This document shows positions 30,501-33,500 of a stretch of 64,000 bases of DNA, in pieces. Positions within the stretch are counted from its first letter, which is position 1; every line of letters begins with the position of its first letter. Made by a program: the position numbers and the translations under genes. Source of the DNA: Cladocopium goreaui (taxonomy: Eukaryota > Sar > Dinophyceae > Suessiales > Symbiodiniaceae); contig CAMXCT020000376.1 in the NCBI GenBank assembly GCA_947184155.2, positions 124,001 through 188,000 of the forward strand, written 5' to 3'. The notes beneath the pieces were generated by a model. That model made no database searches and was not told the origin of the DNA. It saw nothing but the letters and a program-made list of their open reading frames with translations.

Positions 30501-33500
30501 TATTAAACCTATACTGGTTGGTGGTTTCAAACATTTTTCCCGAGAGCGTCTGAGCGCAGGGTTCTTCCAATAGTGGGGGTCTGTAAAACATCTTCTCATC
30601 TTCACATCTCATCTTCACATCTCATCTTCACATCCTCTCATCTTCACATCTCATCTTCACATCCTCTCATCTTCACAGCTTTGTTTAAGTCAGGTACACA
30701 CGCGCATCTGCACATCCTTCTCATCTTCACACTTTTCATCTTTACATCCTCTCATCTTCACATCCTCTCATCTTCACATCTGCTCATCTTCACATCCTCT
30801 CATCTTCACATCCTCTCATCTTCACATCTGCTCATCTTCACACCTTCCCATCTTCACATCTTCTCATCTTCACATCTGCTCATCTTCACACCTTCCCATC
30901 TTCACATCTGCTCATCTTCACATCTGCTCATCTTCACATATGCTCATCTTCACATCTGCTCATCTTCACATCTGCTCATCTTCACATCTGCTCATCTTCA
31001 CATCTGCTCATCTTCACATCTGCTCATCTTTACATCTGCTCATCTTCACATCTGCTTATCTTCACACCTGCTCATCTTCACACCTGCTCATCTTCACATC
31101 TGCTCATCTTCACATCTGCTCATCTTCACATCTTCTCATCTTCACATCTGCTCATCTTCACATCTGCTCATCTTCACATCTTCTTATCTTCACACGTGCT
31201 CACCTTCTCTCTCACGCCTTCTTTTTATCTTTCTCTCTTAAGGCCGAGGGTGGTGCCGGCGGCGAGTCACGAAACGTCAACCCTTTCGCACGAAATGAGG
31301 GTCGATCGTCAAAAACTGAAGAAAAATTGCGATTTTACTTGTGCTAAAGCAACCCTTTCGCACGAAATGAGGGTCGATCGTCAAAAACTGAGGAAAAATT
31401 GCGAATTTACTTGTGCAGGACTTGTCCCGGAGCAACCCTTTCGCACGAAATGAGGGTCGATGCGCAAAAACTGAGGTTAAATTGCGATTTTACTTGTGCT
31501 GGAGCAACCCTTTCGCACGAAATGAGGTTCGATCGCCAAAAACTGAGGAAAAATTGTGATTTTACTTGTGCCAGAGCAACGCTTTCGCACGAAATGAGGG
31601 TCGATCGTCAAAAACTGAGGTTAAATTGCGATTTTACTTGTCCCGGAGCAACTCTTTCGCACGAAGTAATGACCCACCGGTCTCGATCGCAAAAACGAGG
31701 TAAAATTGCGATTTGACTTGCCCCGGAGCAACCCTTTCGCACGAAATGAGGGTCGATCGGCAAAAACTGAGGTAAAATTGCGATTTTACTTGTGCCGGAG
31801 CAACCCTTTCGCACGAAATGAGGGGCGATCGGTAGAAACTGAGGTAAAATTGCGATTTTTCCTGTGCCGGAGCAACCCTTTCGTCTGTGTGTAAAAGCGT
31901 CTGTGTGTAAAAGCGTCTGTGTGTAAAAGCTTCTGTGTGTAAAAGCGTCTCTGTGTGTAAAAGTCTCTGTGTGTAAAAGCGTCTGTGTGTAAAAGCGTCT
32001 ATGTGTAAAAGCGTCTGTGTGTCAAAGCGTCTGTGTGTAAAAGCGTCTGTGTGTAAAAGTGTTTGTGTGTAAAAGTGTTTGTGTAAAAGCGTTTGTGTGT
32101 AAAAGCCTCTGTGTGTAAATGTGTTTGTGTGTCAAAGCGTCTGTGTGTAAAAAGCGTCTGTGTGTAAAAAGCGTCTGTGTGTAAAAGCGTCTGTGTGTAA
32201 ATGTGTTTGTGTGTCAAAGCGTCTGTGTGTAAATGTGTTTGTGTGTCAAAGCGTCTGTGTGTAAAAGTGTCTGTGTGTAAAGGCGTCTGTGTGTAAAAGG
32301 GTCTGTGTGTAAAAGCGTTTGTGTGTAAAAGCGTCTGTGTGTCAAAGCGTTTGTGTGTAAAAGCGTCTGTGTGTAAAAGTGTTTGTATGTAAAAGCTTCT
32401 GTGTGTAAAAGCTTCTGTCTGTAAAAGCTTCTGTGTGTAAAAGCTTCTGTGGGTAAAAGCTTTGTGTGTAAAAAGCGTCTGTGTGTAAAAAGCGTCTGTG
32501 TGTAAAAGTGTTTGCGATGCAAACTATTGTCTTGCACTTCTCACTATTTTGTCTTGATACTCCTCTTCTCGACTGCCTATAACACAGCTTTCATATACCG
32601 TTTCTAAAATTGCATCTCCATACTAACAAGAGAAGACCCTGCTCCTCTACGCTCTCGGGCCATCCGTCGTCTAGTTTATTTTCCCATTGCATATGGGATC
32701 ATCCTTCCCATTGACTTTCTTATGTTTCAAGATGGTTATTGCACCACCAAGCAGTAATGGTAGTAAGTAGTAATACTACTAATAGTAATAATAGTAATAG
32801 TTAATATACTTACCATTATAATAGTTGATGAAGCGATATTAAAGCTATTTACTATATCATATCTATATCATATCTATATCTGGTTGGTGGTTTGGAACAT
32901 TTTTTGTTCTGTATATTGGGAACAATAATCCCAACTGACTTTCATATGTTTCAGAGGGGTAGGTATACCACCAACCAGATATTACATGTTCATACATATC
33001 ATTACATATTAGATTTCACGGTTTGTAGAGTTTTCCAGCACAAGATATTAAACCTATTGGTTATTGCACCACCAACCAGAATGAGTTTAAGGTACTATAT
33101 CATTATATCACCTATATAGATCATCACTATATCACCATCTATATTGTTTTAAGGCACTATATCACTATATCACTATATCACTATATCACTATATCACTAT
33201 ATCACTATATCACTATATCACTATATCACTATCTATATATCACTTATTAGTTTAAGGTACTATATTGTTTTCCCATGCATTCTCCCATAACTTGTTAGCG
33301 AATTCTCCGATGTTTTCTGGCAGGAAAGCCTCAACGAAGGAGCCACACCTCCGAGTGCGGATGGTGTGCCTGGCAACGGACGAGTAATATATGGGGGACC
33401 GGTGGATGCAAAAGGCAGCTTGAATGATACATATATATATATATATAGAATATTATAGAATATATCATCATCCTGAAGTTGATTGAATATCAATTTGTCA

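Follow-up and report, generated by a model that had tools for sequence, protein, structure and literature searches.

The region analyzed here, hereafter the window, is a 64,000-nucleotide stretch of the Cladocopium goreaui genome (G000:C376:124001-188000; genome of 1.17 Gb in 6,202 contigs). It holds three related copies, A, B and C, of what we consider to be a mobile element, all on the forward strand. Copy A (30539-32674) reads as a complete non-autonomous Helitron-type element with the boundaries TTTT|(T)CCCGAGAGCG ... CGTCGTCTAG|TTT. Its 5′ asymmetric terminal inverted repeat, CCCGAGAGCG (30539-30548), was recognized both by reading the sequence and by an end-pattern match. This is followed by array 1 (30588-31207), with approximately 39 copies of the 16-bp unit CATCTTCACATCTGCT, a linker with the core CTCTTAAGGC (31235-31244), array 2 (31278-31883), with 8.2 copies of a 72-bp unit, and array 3 (31882-32508), with 39 copies of the 16-bp unit TGTGTGTAAAAGCGTC. 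A single-copy 3′ tail (32514-32649) then leads to the 3′ asymmetric inverted repeat, CGCTCTCGGG (32650-32659), which lies 15 bp inside the 3′ terminus CTAG (32671-32674).

Copy C (52244-54430) is a complete element of a second subfamily with the same arrangement: a 5′ asymmetric inverted repeat (52244-52253), array 1 (52291-52667) of 30-bp units TACATCTTCACACCTTCACATCTGCTGATC, the linker core CTCTTAAGGC (52702-52711), array 2 (52736-53100) of 72-bp units, one of them shortened, array 3 (53153-54019) of 16-bp units in two blocks (53153-53366 and 53578-54019) separated by single-copy sequence, and a 3′ asymmetric inverted repeat (54406-54415), again 15 bp inside a CTAG terminus. Array coordinates in A and the matching blocks in C were obtained with Tandem Repeats Finder. 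Copy B (40598-41489) comprises only the right part of the element, namely a 16-bp array (40598-41323), an A-type tail with 92% identity to that of A, and the right end CGCTCTCGTG...CTAG; its left end was searched for upstream and not found. Two further arrays, of 45-bp (38519-39015) and 40-bp (39894-40525) units, sit upstream of copy B.

A sequence-only reading of the window had proposed A and C as two copies of one unit, and their coordinates, ends, module order and near-equal length (2136 bp and 2187 bp) were reproduced. It had also described an inverted counterpart of the left end at the right end; this counterpart is present but is not terminal. Exact matches to the left-end pattern lie at 30536 and 52241 (five matches in the window with up to two mismatches; shuffle mean 0.61), and the right-end pattern matches at 32650, 41465 and 54406 with zero, two and one mismatches, respectively (shuffle mean 0.00). 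Four left-end-like matches between 34657 and 36101, inside an array of AAGGTTCCCAAGC, were dismissed as chance. Within the mismatch limits applied, all 83 16-bp units, 13 72-bp units, 42 CATCTTCACA units and two linkers in the window fall on the forward strand inside A, B or C.

The proposal that the element holds no protein gene agrees with our searches: none of the four open frames of at least 150 aa in A and C reaches a Pfam cut-off, with three matches lying below the curated score. No Pfam family was found in three window frames outside the element copies, no Rfam family was found in the window, and copy A had no match to phage records. Two other repeats were observed in the window. In a 1.8-kb array of the 13-bp unit AAGGTTCCCAAGC (34457-36260), the content recurs roughly every 984 bp, which yields long open frames that look spurious, and a long ACAT/ATAA microsatellite array occupies 59033-59977.

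Paired ends, copy structure and target sites

The ends of the element are abundant in the genome. The exact A-type right end occurs at 2,109 places (1,058 + 1,051) and the exact left end at 1,783 (893 + 890), while neither reversed-pattern control matched anywhere. Among the first 100 right ends listed, all from contigs C2-C147 (94 of the 100 left ends listed fall within that range), 43 were preceded on the same strand by a left end at a distance of 0.3-4 kb, and 58 by one within 12 kb. Control placements of the left end gave far fewer pairs for the same right ends, with the mirrored position yielding 1 (4 kb) and 3 (12 kb) and the two opposite-strand positions yielding 0 and 0 at 4 kb and 1 and 3 at 12 kb. 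Exact ends of the C subfamily were found at 583 (right) and 596 (left) places; for the first 100 right ends listed, with 95 of 100 listed left ends in range, pairs numbered 30, 56 and 59 within 4, 12 and 20 kb, and controls gave at most 3. Exact matching overlooks mutated ends, and at the longer spacings some pairs may be neighbors rather than one element. The sequence-only reading had named a genome-wide lack of co-occurring ends as the result that would speak against a transposable element; the ends do co-occur, paired and oriented, as its interpretation of a non-autonomous transposon carrying satellite-like arrays requires.

A DNA search with copy A as query returned 5,450 first-look candidates, of which 40 were scored. 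Eighteen complete copies were recovered from 20 loci and the window: 16 of the loci contributed one apiece, and A and C are the other two. The remaining four loci (L036, L037, L046 and L048) lack a full end pair and hold a left end, or the tail and arrays only. The complete copies are 2,052-3,010 bp long (mean 2,297), and in every one array 1 is followed by the linker, then the 72-bp array and then the 16-bp array; 17 carry the A-type tail, the tail of C being different. This uniformity of the 20 loci is overstated, because they were drawn by similarity to A. Eight further loci, which include L049, L051, L055 and L056, were drawn solely by a right end. L051 has both ends without the 72-bp array, and L055 has both ends, no 72-bp array and only two units of array 1 (the CATCTTCACA array). 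In L056 (G000:C5:108203) the match to A is limited to the last 35 bp, and an inverted-repeat insertion is visible by eye upstream; this locus is perhaps a further subfamily sharing just the ends. Module content is hence more variable than the earlier reading implied, as these three loci and the C57 and C134 elements described below demonstrate. A weak right-end match at L045:2327 was dropped as chance. Two A-type right ends, L053 and L054 (G000:C3:560859 and 565873), lie 5 kb apart with an identical right flank, which suggests a local duplication that includes the element.

Insertion sites are T runs. Every left end examined follows TT (25/25), and 21 of the 25 follow TTTTT; a T follows each of 28 right ends examined, L053 and L054 sharing a flank. 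At all 18 complete copies the abutting direct repeat consists of T alone, 1-6 long, so the target-site duplication that the earlier reading had proposed looking for is absent from them. As the cut falls within a run of T, both CCC...CTAG and TC...CTAG are possible readings of the ends. Copy A is inserted in a dispersed repeat of another kind: when its flanks are joined, they match 10 uninterrupted places (three in the window and seven in other loci) at 72-87% with small gaps. One such empty-site paralogue lies at 29604-29717 on the forward strand and another at 32865-32978. This target repeat has inverted-looking ends (TGGTTGGTGGTTT ... CACCACCAACCAG) and looks like a MITE family; it was seen in the window at 10422-10468, 29604-29717 and 32865-32978, and at L029, L035, L040, L042 and L055. 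For the other 17 complete copies, no usable empty site was found in the sequence examined, and a spanning match for L032 was a T run.

These observations bear on whether the unit is simply dispersed satellite DNA, moved by recombination or extrachromosomal circles, whose apparent ends are conserved array edges. Most of the element is indeed tandem repeat. Against this, left and right ends pair in the expected orientation across the genome, the repeat that A splits is found intact at other places, the window has no array unit outside the element copies, and L051 and L055 keep their ends while some arrays are missing. We therefore regard free satellite as scarcely credible and treat the unit as a transposon.

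Of 29 right ends inspected, the weak match L045:2327 among them, a single one showed a target duplication; for nine just 0.6-1.5 kb upstream was examined. The duplication is at L049, which retains nothing but a C-type tail (89.5% across 229 bp) that begins at 1303 in a CT microsatellite. This tail is flanked directly on both sides by TTACTTACAAAAACCT (1289 and 1526), the upstream copy following TTT, and the repeat constitutes a 16-bp target duplication at a 5′-truncated copy. Exact 9-10 bp matches elsewhere upstream of three other right ends were taken as chance. Copy B was likewise considered as a truncated copy with a target duplication and rejected: its right flank has no exact repeat of 9 bp or more, and matches were only 8-10 bp with one mismatch, the longest lying in the unrelated 45-bp array.

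Candidate autonomous partner and class assignment

The genome is rich in rolling-circle transposons. The Helitron_like_N domain (PF14214) was found in at least 145 places (150 of 330 candidates scored) belonging to several classes, some of them in open frames of up to 4,798 aa. A Pfam scan of Rep frames confirmed the presence of Helitron_like_N, and a protein homology search with the Rep frame of L011, which is of another class, gave seven matches. We compared 26 of the 145 places, those on contigs covered by the C-type end lists, with the C-type ends. On contig C242 an exact left end (23908, forward), a Helitron_like_N domain (34603-35202, forward) and an exact right end (40545-40570, forward) occur in order on the same strand, the left end 10.7 kb before and the right end 5.9 kb after the start of the domain. 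The interval C242:23910-40569 (16.66 kb) is the longest of the 59 pairs found within 20 kb among the first 100 right ends listed. Based on end densities, the chance of finding both ends around one of 26 places is on the order of 1 in 10,000, a figure for which the distances were chosen after the fact. C242 is thus a likely autonomous partner, a candidate by position.

Among the 26 places, only C242 has both ends around the Rep domain, and only C120 has one end at a fitting distance. There, an exact left end is followed by array 1 (seen in L057), and the Rep domain, covering the same profile range as that of C242 (58-191), lies 11 kb downstream on the same strand; from the left end to the far edge of the domain is 11.6 kb, and no exact right end was found. 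On C418 a right end is 22.9 kb away from the Rep domain and there is no left end. A left-like end at L012 faces the direction opposite to its Rep frame and was discarded. The earlier reading had suggested searching for an autonomous relative with a transposase and the same ends. A candidate for such a relative is indicated by position on C242, with a Helitron Rep domain between the ends.

The 10-bp perfect inverted repeat near both ends, the non-autonomous structure and the high copy number might also be expected of a cut-and-paste (DDE) DNA transposon or MITE, with CCCGAGAGCG and CGCTCTCGGG as its inverted repeats. However, the 3′ arm lies 15 bp inside the end, all 18 complete copies lack an abutting duplication beyond a T run of changing length, and a Helitron Rep domain stands between the same ends at C242. 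Terminal repeats at both termini together with a constant-length duplication, which define TIR elements and MITEs, are not found here, and an origin of this type is very improbable.

Since the element combines an asymmetric inverted repeat, insertion in T runs without duplication and a CTAG end, we conclude that it is a non-autonomous Helitron, and it is highly probable that A, B and C form one family of non-autonomous Helitron-type (RepHel-mobilised) transposons closest to Helitron2/HINE. The asymmetric repeat, 10 bp long, is placed 0-1 bp inside the 5′ terminus and 15 bp inside the 3′ terminus, which fits Helitron2, as does the T-run target without duplication. Central tandem repeats, a common but not universal trait of non-autonomous Helentron/HINE copies, are present as three arrays in all 18 complete copies, 17 of which were drawn by, or are, copy A. 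An autonomous partner of the Helentron/HINE group would also be expected to have an endonuclease domain. The 3′ palindrome of Helentron/HINE elements is absent from the ends folded and 5-10 bp stems of the DINE-1 type were not seen: stems at the ends are weak, that at the 3′ end being 3 bp, five of six end folds are within 0.6 sd of shuffles, and the 5′ end of C folds slightly better, with a z of −0.88. We do not file the family as a certain member of Helitron2/HINE, because no convincing hairpin was found and the 3′ spacing is shorter.

The termini raise the question of a canonical Helitron1, with 5′-TC and CTAG-3′ ends. If the last T of the left run is assigned to the element, its ends read TC...CTAG|T as in that group, and target duplication is likewise absent. 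Insertion is T|T within T runs instead of A|T, though, the 10-bp asymmetric repeat is a feature of Helitron2, and the 16-20 nt palindrome near the 3′ end of Helitron1 is absent. We consider a canonical Helitron1 unlikely.

Arrays, proposed mechanism and comparison with known systems

The earlier reading held that each array is homogenised within its copy. Among 132 72-bp units from the 17 A-type copies, units of one copy are 0.936 identical to each other, versus 0.931 and 0.928 for units of different copies at the same and at other positions. The difference of 0.0076 was reached by none of 1000 label shuffles, so homogenisation is detectable, but the effect is very small (less than 1%). In array 3, adjacent 16-bp units share 0.865 identity, other units of the same copy 0.852 and units of different copies 0.841; the corresponding values for array 1 are 0.914, 0.903 and 0.904. 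Because identities are nearly equal within and between copies, the arrays appear to derive for the most part from the source copies, local turnover having added little. The 72-bp units of C and the A-type copies are 0.766 identical, and the difference between A and C units is at the subfamily level.

In the 17 A-type copies, the mean distance from the majority sequence is 1.4% for the linker and 1.9% for the tail, with single copies reaching 14.8% and 9.6%; the first 45 bp at the 5′ end do not differ among the 17. This closeness suggests that a large part of the spread is recent, in copies that were chosen for likeness to A. The family is high-copy and looks recently active. The two longer elements sampled contain other sequence. 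One kb of interior sampled from a 10-kb C-type element on C57 (L061, G000:C57:211800-212800) is a GC-rich complex array with GGTTCCCAGGCCGCGCTGGGACGCCGCGGCG blocks. The 1 kb sampled from a 6.7-kb element on C134 (L060, G000:C134:80000-81000) is a coding-looking stretch with a 146-codon open frame that adjoins the 16-bp array. This extra content is consistent with Helitron capture, nested insertion being a possible alternative.

Based on these observations, we propose that the Rep-helicase of a large autonomous relative would recognize the shared ends, that is CCCGAGAGCG at the 5′ side and CGCTCTCGGG plus ...CGTCGTCTAG at the 3′ side, and nick one strand. That strand may then be displaced by rolling-circle replication, and the copy would enter a T run, leaving the target unduplicated. 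The 5′ and 3′ asymmetric repeats, which are able to pair, probably mark the end point of replication. Arrays 1-3 would be passengers, or structural filler, copied along with the element; their order may be set because copies descend from few masters, and their length may shift via slippage or unequal exchange. The strand mechanism, mobilization by the C242 partner and the role of the repeats are inferred.

The ordered arrays might instead be a working part that has been kept, as binding sites or spacers for the Rep-helicase, or a product of rolling-circle copying. This idea draws on the left end near the Rep domain of C120, which opens with array 1, and on the order being kept across subfamilies whose units are only 0.77 identical. 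Against it, L051 and L055 have moved or persist with both ends and some arrays missing, and we hold it to be rather doubtful; passenger arrays remain our preferred reading. The family illustrates how rolling-circle transposons can spread satellite-like DNA to thousands of places in a genome. In addition, search programs for Helitrons that rely on canonical ends could be tuned with the help of the combination seen here, a CTAG terminus, an asymmetric repeat and a T-run target in the absence of a clear hairpin.

For comparison with known systems, published features were taken from parts of PMC3627910, PMC5148889, PMC4067079, PMC7492417 and PMC4778049. According to the portions of PMC3627910 compared, Helitron2 elements of Chlamydomonas reinhardtii (Helitron-1N1_CRe and CRe-1/2/3) have an asymmetric repeat of 8-15 bp whose 5′ copy is 0-2 bp from the end. 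In the same account (Bao and Jurka 2013), the 3′ repeat is about 20-30 bp from the end, hairpins occur at both ends, and insertion takes place after TTTT and before T or C, with no duplication at complete copies; truncated copies have duplications of about 7-19 bp after T-rich tetranucleotides. Our element resembles these in its asymmetric repeat, its T-run target without duplication and the truncated copy with a duplication at L049, which is an apparent further case, beside Chlamydomonas, of a 5′-truncated Helitron copy of this sort. In contrast to what those portions describe, it has three ordered arrays, a 3′ repeat 15 bp from the end and no clear hairpin (PMC3627910).

Cg_HINE of the Pacific oyster belongs to the Helentron group and, in the sections of PMC7492417 used, has one array, exceptionally two, and a 3′ palindrome. 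Our element is similar in being non-autonomous and dispersed, with a satellite-like interior and a T-rich target that is not duplicated. It differs in its three arrays, which follow a fixed order (units of 16, 72 and 16 bp in copy A), with other content in some copies, and in having no clear 3′ palindrome (PMC7492417). DINE-1/HINE elements of Drosophila and mites share with it subterminal inverted repeats, a TT or T-rich target and, in some copies, central repeats, and their autonomous partner has the same ends, as far as the relevant sections of PMC4067079 describe. The mite elements in these sections have a 3′ palindrome and repeats of 12-15 bp, placed 2-4 nt inside the 5′ terminus and some 38-60 bp inside the 3′ terminus, whereas our 10-bp repeat lies at 0-1 nt and 15 bp, respectively, and a clear palindrome was not seen (PMC4067079). 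Helraiser/Helibat1 has the 5′-TC and CTAG-3′ termini that our element shows when a single T of the run is assigned to it; the 19-bp palindrome of Helraiser lies 11 nt from the 3′ end, and the parts of PMC4778049 compared do not mention an asymmetric repeat.

HINE, DINE-1 and Cg_HINE are, in the sections of PMC4067079 and PMC7492417 considered, non-autonomous Helitron2/Helentron members with central tandem repeats. The earlier reading called the element undescribed, which does not hold for its kind: in anatomy it agrees with the Helitron2/Helentron group, whose HINE members carry tandem repeats. We did not encounter Helitron-type elements with three arrays in the literature listings searched or in the portions of the published descriptions compared. 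In conclusion, the kind is already known from oysters, flies and algae; what is unusual within it is the lack of a clear 3′ hairpin, the mixture of Helitron1-like ends with Helitron2 repeats and target, and the presence of three ordered arrays.
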